Positions 23,770-39,968 of a stretch of 64,000 nucleotides of DNA are shown here, piece after piece. The position numbers and the translations under genes were made by a program. The stretch comes from Marinobacterium stanieri. Lineage in GTDB: Bacteria > Pseudomonadota > Gammaproteobacteria > Pseudomonadales > Balneatricaceae. The stretch's first letter is position 1, and every line of letters begins with the position of its first letter. The DNA lies in the NCBI RefSeq assembly GCF_900155945.1, contig NZ_FTMN01000005.1:124001-188000 (forward strand), read 5' to 3'. The notes below the pieces were generated by a model that saw only the letters and a program-made list of their open reading frames with translations, had not been told where the DNA came from and ran no database searches.

Positions 23770-24621
23770 TCAGCTTACGCCCAGTGCCTTGGCGTGATGA
23801 CGCAGGTGGTCTTCGATAAAGCTGGCGATAAAGAAGTAGCTGTGGTCATAGCCCGGCTGCAGGCGCAGCTCGAGCGGGTGGTTCGCAGCTTCGCAGGCCG
23901 CCTGCAGGGCTTCCGGCTTGAGCTGTTCCGCCAGGAAATCATCGGCTTCGCCCTGATCCACCAGCAGGTGCAGTTTCTCTTCCGCATTGGCAATCAGCTC
24001 ACAGCTGTCCCAAGCCTTCCAGCTTTCGCGATCTTCACCCAGATAACCGGTCAGGGCTTTTTCACCCCAGGGGCAGTTGATCGGGTTGGTGATCGGCGCG
24101 AAAGCGGATACGGAAGCATAACGACCCGGATTCTTCAGTGCGCAAATCAATGCACCATGGCCGCCCATGGAATGGCCGCTGATAGCGCGCTTATCGGTCA
24201 CCGGGAAGTGCTGTTCGATCAGTGCAGGCAGTTCCGCCGTCACGTAATCGTACATGTTGTAATGCGCTGACCAGGGTTCCTGGGTCGCATTGACGTAGAA
24301 GCCGGCGGCAGAGCCGAAGTCGTAGCTGTCATGCTCACCCGGCAGGTCGGTGCCGCGCGGTGAGGTGTCCGGTGCCACAATGGCGATACCCAGCTCGGCG
24401 GCGATGCGCTGAGCACCGGCTTTCTGCATGAAGTTTTCATCGGTGCAGGTGAGGCCGGACAGCCAGTAAAGAACGGGCACCGGTTGCGTCTGGGCCTGTG
24501 GCGGCAGGTAGATGGCAAAGATCATCTCTGTGCCGGTTGCCGGCGACAGATGTTTGTAGCGCTTGAGCCAGCCGTCGAAGCATTTGTTGCTGGCGATCAG
24601 CTCGGGGGCTGCTTGTGACAT
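23770..24621 (-). CDS. fghA: S-formylglutathione hydrolase
   Basis: A 283-aa esterase-D-family serine hydrolase that releases formate and glutathione from S-formylglutathione, the second step of glutathione-dependent formaldehyde detoxification. The nucleophile lies in [11 protein letters not shown] (about residue 148). [12 protein letters not shown] provides the oxyanion region and PGYDHSYFF the catalytic His. Its partner adhC lies upstream on the same strand but is separated by 332 bp containing repeat elements, so the two may not be co-transcribed. Length and motifs are normal. Confidence 0.96.
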
Positions 24622-24953
24622 GTGCGTTCTCCTTGAGCCTTCGGTGGTTTGCCGTGTTGTGCTTGGGTGCTGGGCTCAGGAGAGGACAGTGTTGCTCGAC
24701 ACGCCGTAAACCCTTCCCTGGGGGCTCGATGGCGCCGTCCATGGCGCCATACGGTCGATCAACCCTGTCCTCTCCACGCCTGCAACTGTGGGTGCCAGCG
24801 TCTGGTTATCGTTGATGACAACCGGAGCCGCACTGGGTGCCCGCAAAGCCGACCTTCAGCGCCAGGGATGGCGCTGCAGAGCCTCCATGGATGGATTCAC
24901 GGCGTGTCGGTGTGCGGGTGCCCAGTGGGGCGGTAGGCACCCAAAGCGTCCAA
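24622..24953. repeat. fghA-adhC intergenic region with two inverted copies of a palindromic element
   Basis: There is no gene in these 332 bp. A GGAGAGGACAG (24679-24689) pairs perfectly with CTGTCCTCTCC (24765-24775). Inside lies a block (about 24695-24754) that reads GACACGCCGT, then GGGGGCTC, then GCGCCGTCCATGGCGCC. A diverged second copy of this block lies inverted at about 24853-24911. The elements look like extragenic palindromic repeats of a kind I recall from marine gammaproteobacteria; copy number in the genome cannot be judged here. Confidence 0.65.
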
Positions 24954-26136
<1,183 letters not shown>

Positions 26137-27664: not shown

Positions 27665-27928
27665 TTATTTAACCTTGAGCATATCTTCGGACAGCTCGCG
27701 CGGGTGCTCTTCCCAGCGGATACGGATATTGAGCTGGTTACGGGTTTCATCTTCACTGGCGGACACCTTCAGGTGCAGCAGACCTTCCGGTGTCAGCACC
27801 AGATCGGTATCGCCATCGCTGAATTCCAGTTTGCCCTTGCCCAGACCGCGGGCAATGGACTTGAGCAGGGTCTGAATCGTTTTGCCATCCTGGTAGGACT
27901 CGTAAACGAACTCGTTTTTCGCTGCCAT
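27665..27928 (-). CDS. Amphi-Trp domain protein
   Basis: An 87-aa acidic/amphipathic protein matching the amphi-Trp family I recall (about 80-90 aa, ending with an IRIRWEEHPRELS-type Trp motif, about residues 68-80). The N-terminus FVYESYQDGKTIQTLLKSIA is also typical. The molecular function is unknown. It is the last gene of a seven-gene minus-strand operon that also encodes an ATP-grasp enzyme and an HprK-related kinase, so it may be the substrate or carrier on which those enzymes act. That role is inference. Gap to the upstream gene: 9 nt. Confidence 0.82.
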   Translation of the reverse strand: MAAKNEFVYESYQDGKTIQTLLKSIARGLGKGKLEFSDGDTDLVLTPEGLLHLKVSASEDETRNQLNIRIRWEEHPRELSEDMLKVK

Positions 27929-27937
27929 AAATGCAGG

Positions 27938-29269
27938 TTACCTCGCCGGGTTAAGAGGAGCAGGACGGAACACCTTGGCGAACGGGTAGTCGTTGCTGAT
28001 GCCAATGATATGCCGACCGGGATCGATGATCGTGGCACCACAGCCGACGCCGCGCAAGCCTTCCTGGCGCCGTGAGTTGCGGTCCAGGGTGATATCCGCT
28101 TCCACATGCAGCAATCCCTGACGTAGGGCCAGACGCTGGCCGCGGGTGCGGTTGATATGGCCATGGACCAGTGCGCGCACGCCACAGCCATGAATCTGCT
28201 GCACGCCGGCATCGCTCAAGGGCAGATCGGCGGCCCGGTACTTGGTTCTGAAAGTGTTGGCCAGGGAGCTGTAATAGAAGCTGAACAGGTCCTTGTGCAG
28301 GGCCTTGCGAAAGCGCTTGTTGACCTTTTTCAGGCCGCGCTCGGCAATGTCCCGGCTCATCACATCATCCAGCCCGGCATGCAGGAACAGGAAGGAACCG
28401 GTGCGGCGTACCAGCTGCATCTTTTTGAAGAACCAGTAAAACTCGCCCTTGGGGTGTAAGAACAGACGCTGACAGTGCCGTGCCACGGCATACACGGTGC
28501 GGATATCCATGCCTGCATTGAGGCAGTGGCGCTCAAAACTGCTGGCCTTGCTGCGCATTTTCTTCAGCTCGCGGGCCACGCCGGCTTCGGTCAGTATGCC
28601 TTCGGCGTGGGCGGGAAAACGCTCGAACCAGTCATCCGCCGGCAGCAGCAGGCTGCGGCAGGTATCGGCATCGGGCACACCTTTGAGCCAGTTGCGCTCC
28701 GGCCAACTGTCGAACACCTCACGGAACAGCGGAATCACTTTCTTGCCCATGCGGGCGAACAGGTGCTCGTTACCGGTATGACGCTTCTGCTGCATGGCGA
28801 GCAGTCCCATCATCAAGCGCAGGTCATGGTTGCCGGCCAGCAGGGTCACGCGCGCGCCCAGATCATACAGGCGCTTGAGACTGCGCAGCATTTGCAGGTT
28901 GCTGGGGCCCTTGTCCAGGCAGTCGCCCCCGATGATGAACTCGGCCTTCTTGCCCTGTTTGGTCAGCTTGAAACGGCCCTGTCCCGGTGTATCGTTCAGT
29001 TGCACACCGCCGCTGGCAACCAGTGAGGCTTCAAAGGCTTCCGCATCGGCGTGGGTATCGGAGATGAAAATCACCGGCCGCTTGGGCCAGCGCCAGTCGT
29101 CGGCAGGATAGGGGTCAATCAATGCCTGCTGGCGCATTTCGTCATCGCGGAGACGGCTGTCGGCAGAGCCTTTTTCCAGCGGCCAGACACAACTGGCGGG
29201 TGGCAGCGTTGAGCGGATGCCGGCGTGGCTGGGCAGGTCTTTGATGGTGGGCAGAAGGGTGCGCGACAT
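27938..29269 (-). CDS. Calcineurin-like metallophosphoesterase
   Basis: A 443-aa protein with the five metallophosphatase motifs: ISDTHAD (about residue 69), GGDCLDKGP (about residue 113), LLAGNHDLRLMM (about residue 142), LFLHAGLDD, and ALVHGHINRT (about residue 375) supplying the dinuclear-metal ligands. The substrate is not predictable. It has a long N-terminal extension of about 60 residues and helical insertions, unlike small Ser/Thr phosphatases. It lies 21 nt after the histidine phosphatase and 9 nt before the amphi-Trp gene in the GAK-like operon, so it might remove a phosphate added by the operon's kinases. Confidence 0.85.
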   Translation of the reverse strand: MSRTLLPTIKDLPSHAGIRSTLPPASCVWPLEKGSADSRLRDDEMRQQALIDPYPADDWRWPKRPVIFISDTHADAEAFEASLVASGGVQLNDTPGQGRFKLTKQGKKAEFIIGGDCLDKGPSNLQMLRSLKRLYDLGARVTLLAGNHDLRLMMGLLAMQQKRHTGNEHLFARMGKKVIPLFREVFDSWPERNWLKGVPDADTCRSLLLPADDWFERFPAHAEGILTEAGVARELKKMRSKASSFERHCLNAGMDIRTVYAVARHCQRLFLHPKGEFYWFFKKMQLVRRTGSFLFLHAGLDDVMSRDIAERGLKKVNKRFRKALHKDLFSFYYSSLANTFRTKYRAADLPLSDAGVQQIHGCGVRALVHGHINRTRGQRLALRQGLLHVEADITLDRNSRRQEGLRGVGCGATIIDPGRHIIGISNDYPFAKVFRPAPLNPAR

Positions 29270-29290
29270 GCTGTCCTCTGGGCGACCCGC

Positions 29291-29974
29291 TCAGTCGGGG
29301 CGCTCGCTTTTTTGTCTGATTTTCCACTCACCGCTGTGATGGCTCCAGCCGGTCAGGGGATCCTGTTGCAGCACCACCGGATGTCCGTGATACATGCTTA
29401 ACCGCTTAATATCGTCGAATTCGATGACATTTAGATGATAGGCCGCATGACGAAAGGCAGCGCCGTGGCCGAATACCAGCTGCAAACCGCGTTCGGGTGC
29501 GGCGGCACACAGGCGCAGATGGCCAGCCACACGGGTACCGGCATCCATCAGCGACTCGGCGCCTTCCAGTGGCAGGCGGTAGTGGCTGTCGGATTTCCAG
29601 CCCTTGGGCGCGGGCTCGAAGCGCGGGTCCAGTTCCAGAATGCGTTCGATCTCACCGGTGCTCAGGTTGGCAACGGAGCCAACGCGGCGTTCGCACAGGT
29701 CCGGGAAGCTTTGCAGTTCCGGCGTTGAGCTAAACAGGTCGGCCAGCTCTTCCATATACAGTTGCGCGGTCTGCCAGGCCCTGAGCAGGGTGGAACAATG
29801 TACCTCGGCGCTGGGGCGAATGTCCTGCTGCTCAAGCCAGTCACGGAAGCGGCGTGCCTGTTGGCGCACCTCTTCGGCACCCTCATCGGTCAGCGGATAG
29901 GGCTGCAACGCACTGGGTGTTTTCGCCAGCTGCTCATAGTCACCGTGGCGGATCAGGGCGATCAGTTTAGTCAT
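29291..29974 (-). CDS. Histidine phosphatase (phosphoglycerate-mutase-like) protein
   Basis: A 227-aa branch-1 histidine phosphatase. The catalytic His is in IALIRHGDYE (about residue 9), the Arg in STLLRAWQTA, and the second His in LVFGHGAAFRHAAY (about residue 166). The start is ATG 29974, which overlaps the end of the SixA-NUDIX gene by 8 nt; a GTG at 29989 would add five residues. The substrate is unknown. Being the second histidine phosphatase domain in this operon makes repeated dephosphorylation steps likely. Confidence 0.84.
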   Translation of the reverse strand: MTKLIALIRHGDYEQLAKTPSALQPYPLTDEGAEEVRQQARRFRDWLEQQDIRPSAEVHCSTLLRAWQTAQLYMEELADLFSSTPELQSFPDLCERRVGSVANLSTGEIERILELDPRFEPAPKGWKSDSHYRLPLEGAESLMDAGTRVAGHLRLCAAAPERGLQLVFGHGAAFRHAAYHLNVIEFDDIKRLSMYHGHPVVLQQDPLTGWSHHSGEWKIRQKSERPD

Positions 29975-30926
29975 GGCCGACCCGGGCACGCAGCTGCTGG
30001 ATGAAATGCCCCATGCCGTTGATCACACAGGACGGTGCGGCAGCTTCCGGGCTCAACCACTGGCAGAAGCGTTTATCGTGCCACCACTGGTCTTCGGCGG
30101 GTGTTGCGGTTACGCGCATGGCGAACAGGCGCAGGTCACACTCGCCACCCCATTTGGCGTGACGGGTATCGCCCAGCGGCTCGGGGTCCACTTCGCCACG
30201 AATGCCCAGCTCTTCCCAGGCTTCCTTGGCGGCGGATTCGGCGGCGCTCAGGCCAGGCTCGATGATGCCCTTGGCCAGCTTCCACAGCGGGTTGTTCAGG
30301 GTTTTGAACATCAGCAGCTGCAGCTCGCCTTCATGGATACGGTAGGCCAACACGCCAGACTGTTTGTAATAGTAGGCCGGGCGATCACGCCAGACGGTCA
30401 GGCCGTTCTCTTCAAAGGCAAACAGGCGTGGCAGAGTGCGCGGGCGGATCAGTTTTTCCAGCTGCCAGTGGCCCGGCGTCGGAATGCTGGCATCGGTGCT
30501 CAGGTGTGCCAGAGCGGCTGTGGGCATCAGCTTGCCATCATCCGGAATCGCCAGCGGCTCATCCAGCAACTGTTGCAGCAACTGCTCCAGGCCGGGATTG
30601 TGTGCCACCAGCATAATGCGCTGATAATGCTTCAGGCGTGGCTGCAAATGCTCCCACAGGGTCTCGGGCGAGCCCAGGTAGAGCTCGTCATCGGTTTCGA
30701 TATTGGCGGCCGGAATGCCCATGACCTTGGCGCATTTTTCGGCCGTCAGCAGTGCCCGCTCGGCCGGCGAGCTGATAATGCAATCCGGCTGCAGATCGTG
30801 CTGTTGCAGCCAGTGGCCAATGCGCTGGGCATCGCGTTTGCCGCGCGTTTTCAGAGTGCGTTCGGAATCATCCTTATCGGCACCCACTTCAGCCTTGCCG
30901 TGTCGCAACAGCAGCAGTTCAGCCAT
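29967..30926 (-). CDS. SixA-like histidine phosphatase fused to a NUDIX hydrolase
   Basis: A 319-aa two-domain protein. Residues 1-150 are SixA-like (LLLLRHGKAEVG with the catalytic His, SSPAERALLTAEK, VAHNPGLEQLL with the second His). Residues about 180-310 are a NUDIX domain whose box reads GIIEPGLSAAESAAKEAWEE. The first Glu of the consensus is Leu and the Arg is Lys, so activity is not assured. SixA removes phosphate from phosphohistidine; NUDIX enzymes cleave diphosphates linked to another moiety. The pairing suggests trimming of a phosphorylated or pyrophosphorylated product of the operon. It overlaps both neighbours by 8 nt. Confidence 0.85.
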   Translation of the reverse strand: MAELLLLRHGKAEVGADKDDSERTLKTRGKRDAQRIGHWLQQHDLQPDCIISSPAERALLTAEKCAKVMGIPAANIETDDELYLGSPETLWEHLQPRLKHYQRIMLVAHNPGLEQLLQQLLDEPLAIPDDGKLMPTAALAHLSTDASIPTPGHWQLEKLIRPRTLPRLFAFEENGLTVWRDRPAYYYKQSGVLAYRIHEGELQLLMFKTLNNPLWKLAKGIIEPGLSAAESAAKEAWEELGIRGEVDPEPLGDTRHAKWGGECDLRLFAMRVTATPAEDQWWHDKRFCQWLSPEAAAPSCVINGMGHFIQQLRARVGHD

Positions 30927-32016
30927 TTTTCATGACCTCCCGAGAGTACCAGTCCGCGACCTGATCAAAGTCGGCGCGGCCGGTCACTTCATAGATATTA
31001 AGCCCGCCCAGTGACTGCAAATAATCGGCTTCCGGCGGCAGGGCGGGGCGGTCCAGAAATGCGCCCTGGGCATCCTGATAAAACGCGCCAGGGGATTTCA
31101 TGATGCCGGGTAACAGCTGAGGCTCCTGGGCCAGATCGACCTGGCGGATCTGGCAGGGCTGGTCACTCTGATGCGACCAGTTCAGCAGAATCAAATCGTG
31201 CAGCGGGGCGCTCATGCAGAGGCTGTCGGCGCCGTAGTAGTCTTCCACCGGCACATCGGATTTGAACTCCAGCTGCCAGAGCTCATCCTTGGGCAGTGCC
31301 GCAAAGCGCGCCTGATTTTCCTCGCTCAGGACTGGTCGCAGGCGCTCGTTATTCAGGAGCGTCCCCGGGTTTACTCGGGGCAGCTTGGCTACGCCTTCGC
31401 CCTGAGTACCGCTGTCGCTGCGGGTAACAAACAGGCGGTCGTTGGTGATAAAACGGGCTTCTGGCAGCTCCATCAGGCGCAGCATCAGGGTAGACTTGCC
31501 GCCACCGGAGCTGGCCGCCACTGCTACACCGCGTTGACCCACTGTCAGCGCCGCTGCGTGGCAGATCAGCCCGCCTTTATGCTGCAGATGGTTGATGTGC
31601 TGGTTGTTGATGAAATTGACTGCCTGCGCCAGATTTTCCTGTGCCGGGCCGATCAGCATCGGATCTTGCAGGCGCTGCAGCATCAGCATGCCGGTTTTTA
31701 CCTTGTATACCAGACGCTGGCCTGCGGGCAGATCGACGATGGCTTCCTTGAGACCGCTTTTGCCGGTTTCGCGGGGCCAGTCCTGCCAGTCCAGATCCGG
31801 TTTGATGGCCGGCTGATCGACCATCCACAGCTGAAGGTTCGGTGTGGCCTGCTCGGGTTGCGGGTAGCTGCGGTAATAGTCACGCAGGGCCGCGATCAGC
31901 GCTGGCGCATTGCTGCCGACGCGCACAACAAAATCGTCCAGCTGCAGCATAAAATGGTGTTGGCAATCGGCGATGGCCGTTTCCAGTTGTTGCGTGTTGA
32001 GCGGGTCGTTCAGCAT
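30919..32016 (-). CDS. HprK-related kinase (GAK-system type)
   Basis: A 365-aa protein with an HprK/PEPCK-like P-loop. The Walker A AASSGGGKSTLMLRL is at about residues 167-181, preceded by GGLICHAAAL (about residues 148-157) and followed by ITNDRLFVTR (about residues 190-199), the pattern that replaces the HPr kinase Asp-His motifs. No HPr or PTS gene is nearby, so the target is probably another protein or a small molecule. It matches what I recall as 'HprK-related kinase B' of the GAK system. It overlaps the ATP-grasp gene by 7 nt and the SixA-NUDIX gene by 8 nt. Confidence 0.85.
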   Translation of the reverse strand: MLNDPLNTQQLETAIADCQHHFMLQLDDFVVRVGSNAPALIAALRDYYRSYPQPEQATPNLQLWMVDQPAIKPDLDWQDWPRETGKSGLKEAIVDLPAGQRLVYKVKTGMLMLQRLQDPMLIGPAQENLAQAVNFINNQHINHLQHKGGLICHAAALTVGQRGVAVAASSGGGKSTLMLRLMELPEARFITNDRLFVTRSDSGTQGEGVAKLPRVNPGTLLNNERLRPVLSEENQARFAALPKDELWQLEFKSDVPVEDYYGADSLCMSAPLHDLILLNWSHQSDQPCQIRQVDLAQEPQLLPGIMKSPGAFYQDAQGAFLDRPALPPEADYLQSLGGLNIYEVTGRADFDQVADWYSREVMKNG

Positions 32017-32906
32017 GTGCGTGTTGTTTCCAGTGTTTGCATAATCCAGTCCAGATAGGACGCCGCGGCATCAATGCCACAGCCTTCCAGCGCGCCGCGG
32101 AAGCCTCCAAAGGCGGACACCTCGAACACGACCGGACCGGTGTCCGTGAGGGCAATATCCACGGTGGTGAAATCGAGATCAAAGCAGGCCTGTGCCTTAC
32201 GGCCCAGTTCGATCAGTTCAGCATCGGGTTCAAACGGCTCGTAGCGGCCGCCACTGTGAATGGTGGTGTTCCAGGCATCCTGACTGCCGACGCGGGCATA
32301 GGTGCAGAGGTATTGGCCACCCACAAACACCATGCCCAGATCGCGCCCTGACAGGTCCAGCTTCTTCTGAATGTAGAGCATGGGGTTGCCGGCTGCAAAG
32401 TCCGCCAGCTGGGTGGTCAGGTTGGCGTCATCGGCTTCAACCAGTGTCATGCCCCGTGCCTTGGTGGAGTAGAGCGGCTTGAGCACGGCGGCGCCAAACT
32501 CATGCACGGCCTGTTCGGCGGCTTGCAGCGACTCGGTGACACGGGTCAGCGGCATGGGGATACCGGCGGCAGACAGGCTCAGGGTGCCACTGAGGCGGTC
32601 GATCAGCTGCATCAGGCTGCGGGTCGGGCTGAACACGCGAACTCCCGCGCGTTCGGCATGGCGCAGCAGCTCAATGCGGTCGAGCGTATGCGGGGTGTAG
32701 GTCTCACTGATCTTTTTCACCACCAGGGCGTCCAGTTCAGTCAGGTCCTGACCGCGATACAGCAGACGGTTGCTGTCCAGCTGCAGCTCCACGTCCGCCA
32801 TGTCGATCACCAGGCGAAAACCGGTGCGTGCTTCAATGGCGTCGGCCAGGGCTTCAGTGGACCATTTGCCGGGAATGCCGACAACGCCAATACGCAGATT
32901 ACTCAA
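32010..32906 (-). CDS. ATP-grasp enzyme (RimK-like, GAK-system type)
   Basis: A 298-aa ATP-grasp protein, related in layout to RimK-type amino acid ligases. The nucleotide-binding core includes AVLKPLYSTKARGMTLVE (about residues 139-156) and QKKLDLSGRDLGMVFVGG, with C-terminal metal-site residues in VDIALTDTGPVVFEVSAFGG (Glu and Asn/Ser region, about residues 250-270). Family members form amide or peptide bonds through acyl phosphates. The start codon is TTG at 32906 with AAGGAG seven nt upstream inside the preceding gene; the ORFs overlap by 8 nt. I recall these as 'ATP-grasp enzyme, GAK system'. The substrate is unknown. Confidence 0.85.
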   Translation of the reverse strand: MSNLRIGVVGIPGKWSTEALADAIEARTGFRLVIDMADVELQLDSNRLLYRGQDLTELDALVVKKISETYTPHTLDRIELLRHAERAGVRVFSPTRSLMQLIDRLSGTLSLSAAGIPMPLTRVTESLQAAEQAVHEFGAAVLKPLYSTKARGMTLVEADDANLTTQLADFAAGNPMLYIQKKLDLSGRDLGMVFVGGQYLCTYARVGSQDAWNTTIHSGGRYEPFEPDAELIELGRKAQACFDLDFTTVDIALTDTGPVVFEVSAFGGFRGALEGCGIDAAASYLDWIMQTLETTRTC

Positions 32907-34536
32907 GGAACAACTCCTTCAGGGGCAGTTTGTAACGGTCTTCCTGGCCGGGTTTGACGGCGCTGATCTGCTCCATCAGGTAGAGGGCACGCATGTACAT
33001 GCGACCGGCCAGGGCTTTGTCGAAAATAAAACGAGTCGAGGTGATAAACGAGCGTGCCAGACCAATGGCCAGGCGCAGGTCAAAGCTGTCGTCCTTCTCC
33101 TGTTTGGCGAAGCGACGGCAGGCCATGTAAATGGTTCGGGCGACGGCCATCAGACGACGACGGCGGTCGCGCTCCAGAATCTTCAGACGGTAGATGGAGA
33201 CCATCAGCACCGAGATATCCTGGCAGTAATCCAGGTAGCGCGAGCGGTGCAGGTCGATAAAGAAAATACGCTTTTCCGACGGGTCGTAGATGATGTTATC
33301 CACATTGAAGTCGCCGTGGATGTAGACCGAAAATGGCGGCTTGCAGCGCGCTTCCACTTCAGCGGTGTCGTCGACCAGCGTTTGCAGTGCGGGCAGGGTT
33401 TCACCGCAGATCTGCAGCTGTGGACGATCAAACTCGGGGTGCACCGACAAAATTGAAGGCAGGCGCTTATCCAGCTGGCGCATGAACTGGGCCGGTTCCG
33501 CCTTACGGTTGCGCGTTTCCCGCCAGATGCTGCGCAGGGTTCGCATCAGCTGCCGACTGGCTTGTTCCAGCAGAGCGCCATCATCGGCAAACAGCAGCGA
33601 CTCGAAGGTCTGGCCCGGCAGATGCTCGATCAGCATGGACGCCGAGCCGTCCTTTTCCGAATGCGCCAGAATGCGCGGTGCCAGGCCCGGATAGATTTCG
33701 TGCCAGCTTTCCACGCCCTGTACTTCTTCATCCAGCTTGCCGGGGTCGCCTTCCTTATAGATGGCGAGATAGCGGCTGGAGCTGTTCTTGCGAATGCCGG
33801 CGATGGTGCTGCCGGATCGTGTTTCCGCCAGGGTGCTCACATCCAGTTTCTTCAACGGACGTTTCAGCTCGGCGGCCGCCTGGCGGATATGAGCAAGGTT
33901 TGACAGGTTAATCGCCTGCCCCAGGTTGGCCGCCAGAATGGCCTCCGCCATCTGTTCCAGTGACAGCGCCATCTGGCGCAGGGAATAGCAGGCAAAGAGC
34001 GTCGGCAGCAGCGCCGTGCGTTTCTCACTGGGCGGCTTCTCGATCAGCTCGGCCTGGAGATTGTCACAGGTGAGCTGCAGGCGATCACTACGCTGTTTCA
34101 GGCGGACTGCAGCATTGGCATCGGCATCGAACAGGCCCGGCTCGACCAGCTCCAGTGCCAGGGTGATGCGCTTGAGCATGCGGCGAAACTGTTTGCGCTT
34201 GGGCGGCTGTGGCAGGTCGTCATCGGCATGGCGGGCAAACTCGCTCAGACAACCGCGGGCAGAATCGGTCAGCAGCTCCAGTGCCTGGGCCAGGTTATCC
34301 ACTGCCCGCATGCGCACTTCCTGCTGCACAGGCTTACGGCTGCGGCTGAGCAGGCGGATGGTCTCGCGCTGGATACGCATGCGCAGGTTACTGACGTAAC
34401 CGCGACGGGATTCCAGGGTCGCCAAATGCTTGGGGGAAGGGTTACGGAAAAACTCGGCAGCCTGCTGCAGCTGGGTCTCGACCTCGCTCAGCAGAAAGTG
34501 AAGGTTTTCCTGTATGATCTGACTCAACGCGCTCAT
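32899..34536 (-). CDS. PhoU-like helical domain fused to an APH-type kinase
   Basis: A 545-aa first gene of the operon. Residues 1-230 are long helices resembling PhoU (RIQRETIRLLSRSRKP, LAQALELLTDSARGCLSEF). Residues about 245-545 form an aminoglycoside-phosphotransferase fold kinase, with YLAIYKEGDPGK carrying a candidate Lys, HGDFNVDNIIYD (about residues 407-418) as the catalytic loop and FFIDLHRSRYLD as the metal-binding Asp. PhoU domains are tied to phosphate signalling, and a Pho-box-like array lies just upstream. The kinase target is unknown. The PhoU assignment is by pattern and less certain than the kinase domain. Confidence 0.82.
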   Translation of the reverse strand: MSALSQIIQENLHFLLSEVETQLQQAAEFFRNPSPKHLATLESRRGYVSNLRMRIQRETIRLLSRSRKPVQQEVRMRAVDNLAQALELLTDSARGCLSEFARHADDDLPQPPKRKQFRRMLKRITLALELVEPGLFDADANAAVRLKQRSDRLQLTCDNLQAELIEKPPSEKRTALLPTLFACYSLRQMALSLEQMAEAILAANLGQAINLSNLAHIRQAAAELKRPLKKLDVSTLAETRSGSTIAGIRKNSSSRYLAIYKEGDPGKLDEEVQGVESWHEIYPGLAPRILAHSEKDGSASMLIEHLPGQTFESLLFADDGALLEQASRQLMRTLRSIWRETRNRKAEPAQFMRQLDKRLPSILSVHPEFDRPQLQICGETLPALQTLVDDTAEVEARCKPPFSVYIHGDFNVDNIIYDPSEKRIFFIDLHRSRYLDYCQDISVLMVSIYRLKILERDRRRRLMAVARTIYMACRRFAKQEKDDSFDLRLAIGLARSFITSTRFIFDKALAGRMYMRALYLMEQISAVKPGQEDRYKLPLKELFLE

Positions 34537-34589
34537 GGATGCCGGCTACCGCATAATTTCGGGTGTCACTATACGTTAATGCTTTTGCA

Positions 34590-34633
34590 GCTAACATGAC
34601 AAAAACATGACGTATCAGTGACATAGACGTCAC
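34590..34633 (-). promoter_or_regulatory. Four 11-bp direct repeats, candidate PhoB (Pho box) array
   Basis: On the minus strand four units start at an exact 11-bp period: GTGACGTCTAT, GTCACTGATAC, GTCATGTTTTT, GTCATGTTAGC. The GTCAT core and 11-bp spacing are the PhoB geometry; the last two units match TTGTCAT/CTGTCAT best. Reading on the minus strand, the array ends 54 nt before the kinase ATG. A TATAGT (34573-34568) lies downstream, about one helical turn farther than in E. coli phoA, so its use as the -10 is uncertain. The array is also in front of the divergent CofD-like gene. Confidence 0.65.
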
Positions 34634-34659
34634 GGCTTGCCGGCCACAGAGAGGATAAG

Positions 34660-35853
34660 ATGCCCCGCATATTGATGACGCGACCGGTCAGTATTCCGGA
34701 CTCGCTCAAGCTCACCCGTTACTCCAAGTTGCCCGAACTCGGCCCGCGTGTGCTCTTTTTCAGCGGCGGTTCGGCACTGAACGGGCTGTCGCGCACGCTC
34801 AAGCGATACACCCACAATTCCATCCATCTGGTATCGGCGTTTGATTCCGGTGGCAGCTCGGCGGTATTGCGTGAGGCCTTCGATATGCCCGCGGTGGGTG
34901 ACCTGCGCTCGCGCCTGATGGCACTGGCCGATGAAACGGTGCTGGGGCACCCGGAGATCGTGCGCCTGTTCAGCTACCGTTTGCCCAAAGACGATGATGA
35001 CGCCAGTTTGAATAAACAACTGGAACGGCTGGCGCAGGGCAAGGACCCGCTGGTGCGACGCATCCCCAACCCCATGCGCAGCCTGATCTGCAACCACTTG
35101 GGTTATTTCCAGCAGGCGATGCCGCACGATTTTGATCTGCGTGGAGCCAGTATCGGCAACCTGATCCTCACCGGCGGTTACCTCAACAACAACCGCTCGT
35201 TGGACCCGATCATCTTCCTGTTCTCCCAGCTGGTAAACGTGCGTGGCACCGTGCGCGCGATTACCGGCGATGAACGCCAGTTAATGGCGCGTCTGCAGGA
35301 TGGCACCCGCGTGGTAGGCCAGCACCTGCTGACCGGCAAGGAAGTGGCGCCGATCAGCAGCCCGGTGCAGCGCCTGAAACTGGTGCACTCCCAGCAGGAA
35401 CCCAAGCCGGAAGGCTCCAAACTGCGCAAGGCCAACCGCAAGCTGCTCGCCTCGGCTGAGCTGATCTGCTACCCGCCGGGCAGCTTCTACAGTAGCCTGA
35501 TGGCCAACCTGCTGGTGGATGGCGTGGGCTCTTCCGTGGCCGACAACCCCTGCCCCAAGGTGTACATCCCCAACCTGGGCTCGGACCCGGAACAGTTCGG
35601 CATGACCCCGCAACAACAGGTGGAAGCGCTGCTGCATTACCTGCAGGCGGACCAGGAAGACCCGGTGGCGGTATCGCGCCTGCTCAACATCGTGTTGCTG
35701 GACAGCCGCTTTCTGAATGATGTGGATGCCGATTTCAAGGCGCGCCTGGCAGAGCTGGATATTCAACTGATCGACATGGACCTGACCGACCCGCACCAGC
35801 CGGAGCAGTACGATAACGAGAAACTGGTATCGGCGCTGCTGTCGATGACGTGA
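34660..35853 (+). CDS. CofD-like protein (GAK-system type)
   Basis: A 397-aa protein of the CofD/YvcK fold, relatives of 2-phospho-L-lactate transferase. The N-terminal LFFSGGSALNGLSRTLKRY (about residues 32-50) is the glycine-rich motif, followed by VSAFDSGGSSAVLREAF and GDLRSRLMAL. Later come GNLILTGGYL and CYPPGSFYSSLMANLL. It is not evidence for coenzyme F420 synthesis, since no CofC, CofE or FbiB partner is present. It is divergent from the seven-gene operon, and I recall CofD-like members in the same 'GAK system'. AGAGGA precedes ATG 34660. Confidence 0.85.
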   Translation: MPRILMTRPVSIPDSLKLTRYSKLPELGPRVLFFSGGSALNGLSRTLKRYTHNSIHLVSAFDSGGSSAVLREAFDMPAVGDLRSRLMALADETVLGHPEIVRLFSYRLPKDDDDASLNKQLERLAQGKDPLVRRIPNPMRSLICNHLGYFQQAMPHDFDLRGASIGNLILTGGYLNNNRSLDPIIFLFSQLVNVRGTVRAITGDERQLMARLQDGTRVVGQHLLTGKEVAPISSPVQRLKLVHSQQEPKPEGSKLRKANRKLLASAELICYPPGSFYSSLMANLLVDGVGSSVADNPCPKVYIPNLGSDPEQFGMTPQQQVEALLHYLQADQEDPVAVSRLLNIVLLDSRFLNDVDADFKARLAELDIQLIDMDLTDPHQPEQYDNEKLVSALLSMT

Positions 35854-35949: not shown

Positions 35950-37488
35950 TCAGTTACGGATCAGGTGGTCGAAGGCACCCAGTGCCGCCGTTGCGCCTGA
36001 ACCCATGGAGATGATGATCTGCTTGTACGGTGTTGCCGTCACATCACCTGCCGCGAATACGCCCGGCATGGACGTGGCACCGTGGCCGTCGATCACGATC
36101 TCGCCGCGCTCGGTCAGCTCCAGGCTGTCTTTCAACCATTCGCTGTTCGGGACCAGGCCGATCTGAACAAAGATGCCGGCCACATCCAGTACGTGCATTT
36201 CATCGGTACGACGGTCCTTGTATTTCAGACCGATCACCTTGTTGTCATCACCCAGCACTTCAGTGGTCATCGCCTGTTTGATGATGGTGACGTTGGGCAG
36301 AGATTCAGCCTTTTTCACCAGTACATCATCGGCACGCAGGGTGTCGGAAAACTCCAGTACGGTGACATCTTTCACGATACCGGCCAGGTCGATGGCGGCT
36401 TCGATACCGGAGTTGCCACCCCCGATGACGGCGACGCTTTTGCCCTTGAACAGCGGGCCATCACAGTGCGGGCAGTAGGCCACGCCCTTGCCACGGTACT
36501 CCTGTTCGCCCGGCACGTTCATTTCACGCCAGCGGGCACCGGTAGCCAGAATCACGCTGCGGCTTTTCAGGGTCGCACCGCTGGCCAGTTCCACTTCGAT
36601 CAGCTCGTTTTTGCTGATTTTGGCGGCAGATTGTTCAGTCATTACATCGACTTCGTACTCTTTAACGTGCTGCTCCAGGCTGGCCACCAGTTTCGGGCCT
36701 TCGGTGTAGGGCACGGAAATGAAGTTCTCGATGCCGACCGTATCCATTACCTGGCCACCAAAGCGCTCAGCAACAACACCGGTACGGATGCCTTTACGTG
36801 CAGCGTAGATCGCGGCAGATGCTCCAGCCGGGCCACCGCCCACAACCAGTACTTCGTACGGATCTTTCTCGCTCAGGGCGGCTGCTTTCTTCTCCGCAGC
36901 ACCGGTATCCAGTTTGTTGACGATCTCTGCCAGCGTCATGCGGCCCTGACCGAAGTGCTCGCCATTCATGTATACAGAGGGCACGGCCATGATCTGACGC
37001 TCATCCACTTCCTGCTGGAACAGGGCACCATCAATCATGGTGTGGGTGATGTTCGGGTTCAGTGTCGCCATCAGGTTCAGCGCCTGCACCACGTCCGGGC
37101 AATTCTGGCAGGACAGCGAGATGTAGGTTTCAAACTCGTAGGTGCCCGGCAGATTACGGATCTGCTCCTGCAGTTCGGCATCAGCCTTGGACGGGTGACC
37201 ACCGGCCTGCAGCAATGCCAGTACCAGCGAGGTGAACTCGTGACCCATGGGGATACCGGCAAAGTTCACACGCGGTGCCTGGCCAGCGGCGCCCACAGCC
37301 ATGTTCGGTGCGCGACGGTCGTTACCTTCCTTGACGCTGATCTTGTCAGACAGCTCGGCAATCTCCTGAGTAAGGGTTGCCAGCTCATCGGACTTGTCAG
37401 TGCCGTTGGTGGTCAGGGTCAGCTCAATCGGAGTCACAATGTTCTGCAAGTAAGTGTTCAGCTGCTGCTTCAGGTTTGTATCCAACAT
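35950..37488 (-). CDS. ahpF: Alkyl hydroperoxide reductase subunit F
   Basis: A 512-aa flavoprotein disulfide reductase that keeps AhpC reduced with NAD(P)H. The N-terminal thioredoxin-like domain has the CQNCPDVVQ motif (about residue 128). The FAD domain begins with [19 protein letters not shown], the redox pair is in [13 protein letters not shown] (about residues 340-352), and the NAD motif is [19 protein letters not shown] chose ATG 37488 after AAGGA; upstream in-frame codons would add an untypical 13-residue tail. It is transcribed separately from ahpC, with a terminator and about 345 bp between them. Confidence 0.96.
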
Positions 37489-37642
37489 GGTGTCTGTTCC
37501 TTCAAGGTCAATAAGTCGATCAATCAAGTCAGATGGCGGTCCGCCTGTGGATCTCCTGTGCGGCGGTGAAGCTCATCTCGAATATGTGTTTATAGTACCG
37601 AGCGAGTTTTTATGCGTGAAATTAATCGTAGTTAATAGGCTG

Positions 37643-37657
37643 ATAGCTTTTGGCTAA
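37643..37657 (-). promoter_or_regulatory. OxyR-like half operator upstream of ahpF
   Basis: ATAG-N7-CTAA, part of the motif GATAGCTTTTGGCTAATG, closely resembles the ahpC upstream motif GATAGTTTTTTGCTATTA. OxyR sites are spaced ATAG-N7-CTAT quartets; the second quartet here is poor. It lies about 155 nt upstream of the ahpF start. Confidence 0.45.
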
Positions 37658-37727
37658 TGATGGCCTATAGAAGGAAGCAATCGCCCGACGCTGAACCAGG
37701 TAAACGAGAGTTGCGGCAAGCACAAAC

Positions 37728-37752
37728 AAAAACGCCGCCCCGAAGGGCGGCG
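37728..37752 (-). terminator. Rho-independent terminator after ahpC
   Basis: The stem CGCCGCCC/GGGCGGCG with a TTCG loop on the minus strand is followed by TTTTTG, about 80 nt beyond the ahpC stop. The core is identical to the ahpF terminator. Confidence 0.92.
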
Positions 37753-37834
37753 CCTGGGCCTGTCGCAGCCGAAGCCGGACAGACCGAGCGATGATCAAGC
37801 GCCGGCCAGTGCAAGCCGACGCGGAAGATCAATC

Positions 37835-38398
37835 TTAGATTTTGCCAACCAGGTCCAGAGACGGAGCCAGAGTTGCTTCACCTTCTTTCCATTTAGCCGG
37901 GCAAACTTCACCCGGGTGAGCGGCAACGTACTGAGCCGCTTTAACCTTGCGCAGCAGGTCGTCAGCGTCACGGCCGATGCCTTCAGCAGTGATTTCAACT
38001 GCCTGGATAACACCTTCCGGATCGATCAGGAAAGTAGCGCGGTCTGCCAGGCCCTGGCCTTCACGCATCACGCCGAAGTTGTTGGTGATGTTGCCAGTCT
38101 GGTCGCCGACCATGTAGTAGTTGATCTTGCCGATAGTCTCGGAAGAATCGTGCCACGCTTTGTGGGTGAAGTGCGTGTCAGTAGACACGGAGAAGACTTC
38201 AACGCCCAGCTTCTGCAGCTCTTCGTATTTGTCAGCAACGTCGCCCAGCTCGGTCGGGCAAACGAAGGTGAAGTCAGCCGGGTAGAAGAAGAATACAGCC
38301 CACTTGCCTTTAACGTCCGCTTCAGTGATTTCTACGAACTCGCCCTGTTTGAAAGCGGTAGCCTGGAACGGTTTGATCTCGGTGTTAACGATACCCAT
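37835..38398 (-). CDS. ahpC: Alkyl hydroperoxide reductase subunit C (peroxiredoxin)
   Basis: A 187-aa typical 2-Cys peroxiredoxin. The peroxidatic Cys is in [13 protein letters not shown] (about residue 47) and the resolving Cys in [13 protein letters not shown] (about residue 166). It reduces hydrogen and organic peroxides and is recycled by AhpF. I chose ATG 38398, with AGGAGA 10 nt upstream; the seven residues before it (MCRRFNH) do not belong to the family. An OxyR-like site is found about 100 nt upstream. Confidence 0.97.
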
Positions 38399-38477
38399 GT
38401 GATTGAATCTCCTGCACATTTGAGTAGTTGCTTAAGAAGTTGGAAGCCATAGTACCGGCGTGAGCTGGATTCGTAAA

Positions 38478-38639: not shown

Positions 38640-39968
38640 TCAGGAGAGGACGATATCTTCCGTTGCATCATAGATGGACGAAACATCTTTCCATTTTATT
38701 CGGAACTGGTTTCGCTTTTTTGCTTTCCATTTGCTGTTTGTTAATTTCATGTTGATACCTGGATCGTAGTAAACAACGCTGTCTGCTAAAGCTGAAACGT
38801 AGCTTTTGATGTTCGCTCCTGTGCATAATCGAATGTTTGGGCCATATGAAAAATAGGGAACTTCTTCTCGTAATTCCTTCTGGTAGCTCACATAACAGGT
38901 GTTGGCGTGCTTGCGCTTCCAGTGGTTTAGAAGCTTCTGAAAAGACCAGCCGGCAGCAATGTTCTCTTGCGGGTCCATGAGGACCATCCCGCCCTTTGGA
39001 TCGGTGATTTCCGATTTGGAGTAATCGAATCCGGTAAGGGTCATGGTCAATGAGCTTTTTTCATTCGGCTCATTCATACGATGAATGCTTGCAAAATTTA
39101 TTTTTCGTGCAGTCCTGCTTGTTGCATAGGTATCAAGGAATGTATAGAAATCATCAAGGTAGGTACCCATATCAGGCTCAGGAGTCATAAGGGTAACCAC
39201 GCCCGATGAGTGTGCCTTTAGTTCCCAGTCAAGAAAATCTGGCTCAGACTTTCCGTTAGGCGTTATGCCAAAAAAACTTTCAAGAGTAAGGCCTGCACCG
39301 TTTTGGGCCTTATACGGTATACGATTACCAGCTGCATCCAGGCGGCAAGATCTGATAAATCCCATGTGGTGGATTTCGTTGAGGCGCTGAATGAGTTTGG
39401 TACGCGTGGGAGTCTTACTCAGGGTTTCAGAATATTCATAGAATACAGAAGTGAAAAGTTCGGACTCACCAGAATCTATTCTATGGGCAGCTTCACGAGA
39501 CAAGGCTGAGTCCCAAGGGCTGACATAAGCCAACACACTGTTTTGGCATATGCCAAAGACAAGGCACCGGTTGAGGTTTCCTGCTAGCCTTTGCTCACGC
39601 TCCTCGGGGGTCGGTGGTTGCATTAGATGGCTTGGTGCAAGCCCACAACCCTTGAGAAGGCCTGAAAGGCGTACTTCAGGGTACTTGGGGTAAAGAATAA
39701 ACTGGGATCCACTGGCTTGCTGGATGTTATCGTTAAGGTCGATCCAGCTTAGGGAGACTTTGGCTTTGAAAATCGCGCCTTTCTTTTCGCTGTATCCATC
39801 TTCGTAGATATCCCCGGTCGGTACATTTCGCAGAATATCGAAGTCTGACCCGCAGTAAACTTGCTGCTTGGAATTGTCATTATTTGCCATGAGCTTGAAA
39901 AGGACAGTATGAGCGCCATGACTGCGCATGATTCGTGCAACGTCTTTCAGCTGAGCAGAATAATTCAT
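38640..39968 (-). CDS. MvaI/BcnI-family type II restriction endonuclease
   Basis: A 442-aa protein with the catalytic pattern of MvaI/BcnI enzymes: GAGLTLESFFGI (about residues 224-235) followed by PDFLDWELKAHS (about residues 243-254) giving the D...ExK site. The family cuts CCWGG or CCSGG. The neighbouring Dcm methyltransferase makes CCWGG the likely site. At 442 aa it is longer than MvaI (about 250 aa); the extra N-terminal 190 residues (starting MNYSAQLKDVARIMRSHGAH) are a separate domain I cannot name. AAAGGGA precedes ATG 39968. Base composition is AT-richer than the flanking genes. Confidence 0.83.
   Translation of the reverse strand: MNYSAQLKDVARIMRSHGAHTVLFKLMANNDNSKQQVYCGSDFDILRNVPTGDIYEDGYSEKKGAIFKAKVSLSWIDLNDNIQQASGSQFILYPKYPEVRLSGLLKGCGLAPSHLMQPPTPEEREQRLAGNLNRCLVFGICQNSVLAYVSPWDSALSREAAHRIDSGESELFTSVFYEYSETLSKTPTRTKLIQRLNEIHHMGFIRSCRLDAAGNRIPYKAQNGAGLTLESFFGITPNGKSEPDFLDWELKAHSSGVVTLMTPEPDMGTYLDDFYTFLDTYATSRTARKINFASIHRMNEPNEKSSLTMTLTGFDYSKSEITDPKGGMVLMDPQENIAAGWSFQKLLNHWKRKHANTCYVSYQKELREEVPYFSYGPNIRLCTGANIKSYVSALADSVVYYDPGINMKLTNSKWKAKKRNQFRIKWKDVSSIYDATEDIVLS

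Follow-up and report, generated by a model that had tools for sequence, protein, structure and literature searches.

The GAK system is known in NCBIfam by name without function: its models (TIGR04354-TIGR04357) are function-less models of the hypothetical-equivalog and subfamily kinds, and no work on the GAK system, the amphi-Trp protein, or the HprK-related kinase was found in the open-licence PMC literature. Several characterized systems resemble it in part. In Streptomyces, the kinase, CHAD, and NUDIX genes of the ppk-pptA(CHAD)-nudix operon are under phosphate control, and NUDIX and histidine phosphatases are common beside ppk, as described in PMC8003754. Among the RimK, MptN, and LysX ligases, RimK and MptN are nearest to the GAK ATP-grasp enzyme, and the CofD domain is common to YvcK/GlmR and the GAK CofD-like protein.

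Here we analysed a GAK locus in a 64,000-nt stretch of Marinobacterium stanieri DNA (NZ_FTMN01000005.1; hereafter the window, whose positions are used for all coordinates). A prediction made earlier from the letters alone (the original prediction) had placed a seven-gene minus-strand operon and a divergent CofD-like gene there, and all eight open reading frames (ORFs) were found as placed. Its GAK label also held, since four of the proteins exceeded the curated NCBIfam cut-offs, with all four models matched in this one locus: amphi-Trp (TIGR04354, 68.5 bits, cut-off 31), HprK-related kinase B (TIGR04355 HprK_rel_B, 317 bits, cut-off 200), GAK ATP-grasp (TIGR04356, 454 bits, cut-off 300), and the CofD-like protein (TIGR04357 CofD_rel_GAK, 534 bits, cut-off 340). 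The locus is a member of the GAK system. What is new here is a link to phosphate, which the original prediction lacked, and a revised core. We tentatively propose, with slightly less than even confidence, that GAK serves in phosphate limitation, as a module for both making and degrading a phosphate-rich compound, with amphi-Trp as its obligate non-enzymatic partner.

A revised core of the GAK system

Fifty-four loci with an ATP-grasp gene formed 49 clusters at 90% identity, and 41 of these were complete, having more than 1 kb of sequence past the outermost matches on both sides. The amphi-Trp, PhoU-APH kinase, and ATP-grasp genes were each found in 41/41 complete loci, the last by selection, as its presence was required of every locus. 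HprK_rel_B was present in 39 of the 41, the metallophosphoesterase in 35, and the histidine phosphatase in 34, while a second NUDIX gene occurred in 18 and the SixA-NUDIX fusion in 15. Where present, the second NUDIX gene immediately precedes the PhoU-APH gene; the window locus has none. CofD was linked in 29/41, which is not a free estimate because many loci were found through CofD. The core is thereby revised: amphi-Trp, the PhoU-APH kinase, and ATP-grasp are fixed and CofD is not, so that the set described here adds PhoU-APH to the NCBIfam families and makes CofD optional. The single-contig genome G109 carries a four-gene set of amphi-Trp, PhoU-APH, ATP-grasp, and HprK_rel_B (L144). One locus (L130) has only three genes and a broken PhoU-APH reading frame. 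HprK_rel_B had a match in 23/25 genomes and was not found in two planctomycete genomes at E 1e-20.

The conserved neighbourhood that the original prediction called for was found as well. The gene set recurs in Alpha- and Gammaproteobacteria, Planctomycetota, and a Desulfonatronum metagenome-assembled genome (MAG), with gene order kept within lineages, which argues against a chance cluster. Occurrence within these groups is patchy. HprK_rel_B exceeded its cut-off in 8/274 genomes of the window's class, and the ATP-grasp gene was found in 2/240 genomes of the class of genome G329, 13/345 of its family, 5/246 of the phylum to which the Phycisphaerae locus belongs, and 9/23 of the order of genome G319 (the window or centre genome being counted each time). 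CofD exceeded its cut-off in 2/8 genomes of the window's genus, and five Rhodobacterales plasmids carry GAK ATP-grasp (three of the five regions were read). This scattered pattern fits repeated transfer or loss.

PHO-box-like sites and phosphate-related neighbours

Operon promoters were scored for CTGTCAT-N4-CTGTCAT with a threshold of at least 11/14 matches; the E. coli PHO box has the same motif and 11-bp architecture, according to PMC4415409. Of 50 loci left after dropping five duplicates, 41 had at least 40 bp upstream of the operon's first gene. The controls were 152 stretches preceding other genes of the same loci, with genes called by a simple ORF rule. PHO-box-like sites were found in 12/41 operon promoters compared with 2/152 controls (Fisher 1.3e-7). 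Shuffled operon promoters reached the threshold in 5.4%, and permuted motif units reached 12/41 in 0/300 trials (mean 0.8, best 7). When the spacer was varied from 0 to 14 bp, the count peaked at 4 bp, followed by spacer 11 (6/41 vs 6/152). Eleven of the 12 sites point at the operon (p 0.003) and the twelfth is a tie. About 11 of the 12 are separate, because the window and its nearest relative, L014, are near kin. CofD promoters outside the GAK list had no such site (0/49, a few of them on short contigs holding GAK genes), whereas those in GAK loci had 9/32, mostly in the same shared stretches. As a rough positive control, 3/10 pstS promoters had a PHO-box-like site.

PHO-box-like direct repeats, a feature of the Pho regulon, lie upstream of the operon in the window. 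The putative PHO box reads ATGTCAC-TGAT-ACGTCAT-GTTT-TTGTCAT, with three units in register at an 11-bp period; its best pair matches at 11/14 and the triple at 16/21. In L014 two units are kept, as is a block nearer the operon, the third unit falling in an 11-bp alignment gap. Scoring triple units separated promoters from controls less well than pairs (9/41 vs 5/152), and a consensus promoter scan of the region was uninformative (2 found, 2.7 expected).

A second hint comes from neighbouring genes. A gene for CHAD, a polyphosphate-binding domain, was found near 8/49 clusters and 0/39 solo-CofD control loci, with 203 bits for the protein in L078. The eight loci comprise five gammaproteobacterial loci of one group and three alphaproteobacterial loci, each with a ParA-type ATPase. 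ParA was counted near nine loci, of which the copy in L206 is a MerR-ParA protein, probably for plasmid partition, so the CHAD-ParA pairs number eight. Two short contigs outside the 49 clusters (L020, L023) also carry CHAD. Taken as eight independent events and assuming 20 kb in 4 Mb, the linkage has a chance probability of 1.5e-10; by hand reckoning with only four events, it is about 1e-4. A Na/Pi symporter gene lies near 4/49 loci and a CYTH gene near 3/49; IMPase-like neighbours (3/49) are too few for use. CHAD and PHO-box sites count as two separate hints because the sets of loci do not overlap. The kinds of hydrolase in GAK are the same as those that PMC8003754 reports next to ppk; unlike the Streptomyces ppk operon, GAK has CHAD as just an occasional neighbour, and none of the eight window proteins matched a polyphosphate-kinase (PPK) family in NCBIfam or Pfam at E 0.01.

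Several observations weigh against a phosphate link. At threshold, 29/41 operon promoters have no site, and the 12 with a site belong to Gamma- and Alphaproteobacteria, with no Planctomycetota or Desulfonatronum locus among them. Spacer 8 also gave a small excess (5/41 vs 1/152), and no PHO-box-like site was found in 11 CHAD promoters or two Na/Pi symporter promoters. PstS lies near 4/49 GAK loci but also near 4/39 control loci. The CHAD linkage rests on one gammaproteobacterial group and three alphaproteobacterial loci, none of which is among the 12 PHO-box loci. Across whole genomes the CHAD difference is modest, 19/25 with GAK against 11/25 others, in a tally made by hand in which, for part of the other genomes, the earlier search had covered only CofD. 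The CHAD-ParA-CYTH set also occurs away from GAK (L213, L214) as a module of its own, beside genes that by eye resemble those for pyrroloquinoline quinone or cobalamin synthesis.

Gene identities, enzymes, and the CofD-like neighbour

The features of the window locus are listed below. Neighbouring minus-strand genes overlap by 7-23 bp or sit 9-21 bp apart, and 123 bp separate the operon from the divergent CofD-like gene.

Table 1 Features of the GAK locus in the window
Feature	Position	Strand	Family match or remark
Amphi-Trp protein, 87 aa	27665..27928	-	TIGR04354, Pfam Amphi-Trp; sole non-enzyme of the locus
Metallophosphoesterase, ApaH/PPP-like motifs intact	27938..29269	-	PF00149 Metallophos
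Histidine phosphatase, RHG motif intact	29291..29989	-	PF00300 His_Phos_1
SixA-NUDIX fusion	29967..30926	-	PF00300 His_Phos_1 + PF00293 NUDIX
HprK-related kinase B, P-loop SGGGKST, predicted PCK-superfamily fold	30919..32016	-	TIGR04355
GAK ATP-grasp enzyme, RimK/MptN-like	32010..32906	-	TIGR04356; Pfam RimK
PhoU-domain + APH-fold kinase, heading the operon	32899..34536	-	Pfam APH; weak PhoU
Putative PHO box, three 7-bp units, directed at the operon	34596..34624	-	Consensus match
GAK CofD-like gene, divergent; frequent yet dispensable neighbour	34660..35853	+	TIGR04357; Pfam CofD

Domain searches and conserved catalytic motifs bore out the two kinases, three phosphatase-type hydrolases, and NUDIX domain that had been read from the sequence. 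The window kinase has a weak PhoU match (24.5 bits, cut-off 23.5); among 30 first-gene homologues scanned, PhoU was found in 26 (best E 5.7e-25) and APH in 29, with H407 G408 D409, N414, D428, and R431 of the APH kinase invariant in 30 aligned rows. The frequency of PhoU in these kinases also speaks for the phosphate link. In the metallophosphoesterase, D71, H73, GGD 114-116, GNHD 146-149, HAG 297-299, and H371 are near-invariant (28 rows), as are R14 H15 G16 and H175 of the histidine phosphatase (28 rows). The SixA-NUDIX fusion scored 65 bits with the sixA model, under its 74.5 cut-off.

The closest solved relative of the GAK ATP-grasp enzyme is the RimK-type protein 4iwx (E 1.7e-22). Its scores with the ligase models MptN (137 bits, cut-off 350) and rimK_fam (99 bits, cut-off 143.4) fall below the curated cut-offs, and two residues are replaced, so it does not class as a RimK-type alpha-L-glutamate ligase. 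In a residue-by-residue comparison with four of 11 PDB matches, the GAK family has DLG and EVS at the positions of DIR and EVN in the RimK relatives; an invariant Gly (G191) replaces the DIR Arg, and Ser replaces the EVN Asn in at least 90% of 31 rows. The DIR Arg and EVN Asn are functional residues of RimK-type ligases. Because both are replaced, the substrate or chemistry of the GAK enzyme may differ from that of RimK, MptN, and LysX. We set aside an apparent likeness between its tail motif and inositol kinases, as the same shape occurs in MptN.

For the HprK-related kinase, the family named in the original prediction stood, with a qualification from the fold. The protein matches TIGR04355 but no Pfam family, and its NCBIfam matches of this kind are limited to the two HprK-related models, A and B; no HPr kinase family model of Pfam or NCBIfam matched, so by these models it does not class as an HPr kinase/phosphorylase. 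In a Foldseek search with its predicted structure (predicted local distance difference test, pLDDT, 95, from 28 sequences), the top ten matches were all phosphoenolpyruvate (PEP) carboxykinases (best E 8e-8, 410-443 gapped alignment columns). The match is moderate, with template modelling (TM) scores of 0.44-0.48 of the query (0.51 for 1ii2_B, rank 30), a root-mean-square deviation of 9-11 Å, and ~11% identity; HPr kinase entries in the same search scored TM 0.24-0.31 over a shorter stretch. By sequence the protein is not a PEP carboxykinase. Its profile aligned with that of PckA over only 38 columns of the P-loop region (probability 73), so the relation rests on the model, although by eye its P-loop, HAA, and ND line up with GLSGTGKTT, MHCSAN, and GDD of PckA. 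Because the best fold matches are PEP carboxykinases, a small-molecule substrate appears at least as likely as a protein. Besides the P-loop Lys, nine Lys or Arg residues are invariant in 28 rows (K86, K90, R101, K105, R194, K211, R214, K252, K307), a hint of a phosphate-rich substrate. A genome's second HprK_rel_B gene (L141, G209:C152) lies on a 7.5-kb contig without the remaining GAK genes, adjoined by CHAD, histidine phosphatase, and partial PstS genes.

CofD, which the original prediction counted among the GAK families, kept that place by its TIGR04357 match and frequent linkage, but proved dissociable. One scan, reaching close relatives only, gave a set of 67 CofD loci. GAK ATP-grasp was present in 9/23 chosen CofD genomes and absent from 14/23 (E 1e-50; several genomes were drafts). 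Conversely, of 23 chosen GAK genomes, CofD was matched in 13, exceeding the cut-off in 11 of them, and was not found in 10 at E 1e-10, G109 included; the 23 had been picked mostly as distant or without CofD nearby, and several were draft MAGs. When 82 CofD proteins, of which 35 are linked and 47 solo, were placed on a tree, GAK linkage needed 20 changes, at least 14 of them forced by well-supported branches, compared with 26.5 on average for shuffled labels; at most 4/500 shuffles were as low as 20. Some solo proteins are on short contigs, where linkage past the contig end is possible, while sister proteins on long stretches also differ in linkage (L053/L055, L060/L049, L145/L147). CofD linkage is thus both clustered and labile on the tree, and the TIGR04357 model is not specific to the GAK system.

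Other features of CofD loci were recorded. In Roseibium and kin, a glycerate 2-kinase-like gene precedes solo CofD in 13/47 solo loci (L026, L027, L031, L033, L034, L036-L040, L042, L043, L048). Its product had DUF4147 and MOFRL in two loci checked and matched glycerate 2-kinase models, below cut-off, in one; such a neighbour may mean that the CofD-like protein acts on a phosphoglycerate-type compound. The CofD protein of L139 (9666-11468) has 600 aa, with ~200 additional N-terminal residues and a very long branch. That of L022, a contig titled Halobacteria archaeon, pairs with an Ectothiorhodospiraceae MAG (support 100/100), and the contig is probably misbinned or misnamed.

Elsewhere in the window, AhpF (812 bits) and AhpC-family genes adjoin the CofD gene (35950-38419), followed by an MvaI/BcnI-family restriction endonuclease gene (38640-39968, 152.8 bits). 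A putative esterase and zinc alcohol dehydrogenase pair (23770-26069, Pfam) presumably serves formaldehyde detoxification.

Proposed function and alternatives

On the sequence side, the phosphate-limitation reading draws on gene content, conservation of catalytic motifs, the predicted fold of the HprK-related kinase, the PHO-box enrichment, and CHAD in some loci. It is the most economical reading, and within it we infer regulation by PhoB as well as the reactions, their substrate, and what amphi-Trp does. At low phosphate, the operon would be switched on by PhoB bound to the tandem 11-bp repeats that separate it from CofD. The PhoU-APH and HprK-related kinases would each transfer a phosphoryl group, and the ATP-grasp enzyme would spend ATP on further activation or ligation of a shared phosphate-rich intermediate, which probably has phosphoanhydride bonds or is made out of polyphosphate or beside it. 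Degrading the intermediate or limiting its level would fall to the histidine phosphatase, metallophosphoesterase, and SixA-NUDIX fusion. Amphi-Trp, as obligate partner without catalytic activity, would hold the substrate, keep the first two enzymes together, or itself bear the group, and CofD, as an optional neighbour, may supply or draw on the same pool. A bolder version, which we consider improbable, is that GAK controls a soluble polyphosphorylated messenger by both its synthesis and its removal, in a circuit that would be the bacterial counterpart of inositol-pyrophosphate phosphate sensing. Switched on by PhoB, the ATP-grasp, APH, and PCK-type kinases would then be the writers, the NUDIX and histidine phosphatases the erasers, and the PhoU domain or amphi-Trp the reader.

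It is possible, though we judge it unlikely, that amphi-Trp itself is reversibly modified, as the original prediction suggested, the ligase and kinases attaching groups that the hydrolases remove. Amphi-Trp is the only non-enzyme and is present in 41/41 complete loci. The GAK ATP-grasp has RimK/LysX-type relatives, and such enzymes act on protein tails, by tail and carrier chemistry. Residues H9, S11, and D14 of amphi-Trp are at least 90% conserved, though the window protein has Tyr at 9. However, the C-terminal residue and tail length vary, which speaks against a RimK-kind tail ligation, and S11 is Ala in L136 and L128, both of which keep both kinases. In the predicted structure (pLDDT 83), one helix (15-31) is followed by four strands; S11 and D14 immediately precede the helix and may simply form its cap. 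In fold, PEP carboxykinase is a better match for the HprK-related kinase than HPr kinase is, and two genomes retain amphi-Trp but lack this kinase. Modification of amphi-Trp is thus a live alternative, weakened by the variable tail and the PEP carboxykinase-leaning kinase fold. Amphi-Trp had no PDB fold match by Foldseek (best E 2.6) and no useful sequence match (best E 0.012, a designed repeat protein). In Planctomycetota GAK loci, a second, divergent amphi-Trp gene lies near the first (L128 7597-7995, L129 12287-12676, L072 4297-4620); the copies of L128 and L072 match Pfam Amphi-Trp.

It seems to us distinctly unlikely that GAK makes a cofactor, F420-like or nucleotide-linked, for which CofD would be the transferase and ATP-grasp the amino-acid ligase. 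Such biosynthesis would account for the Pfam CofD domain (131 bits), the ATP-grasp score with MptN, a glutamate ligase, and the CofD linkage in 29/41 loci. Against it stand the CofD-less GAK genomes (10/23 chosen, including G109), the common solo CofD genes, and the replaced RimK-type Arg and Asn. Still harder to credit is an HPr/Crh-like relay in which the HprK-related kinase would phosphorylate amphi-Trp for control of carbon use and CofD would play the part of YvcK. Amphi-Trp and HPr are similar in size, Bacillus has a yvc-crh gene set, and the CofD-like protein scores 123.6 bits with the YvcK model TIGR01826, below its cut-off of 196. However, no HPr is among the matches listed for amphi-Trp (50 of 51 weak PDB matches), the fold search ranks PEP carboxykinase above HPr kinase, and no yvc-crh gene set appears in the passages of PMC5482804 that were searched. 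A defence or selfish mobile cassette, to which the patchy occurrence and the five Rhodobacterales plasmids might point, is very improbable, as PADLOC gave 0 families for each of the eight proteins and no close ATP-grasp relative was found in viral contigs.

With phosphate limitation, a named system without function gains its first directly checkable clue. Many marine bacteria live at low phosphate, and a patchy, sometimes plasmid-borne operon acting on phosphate reserves would, if the proposal is true, be of ecological interest.

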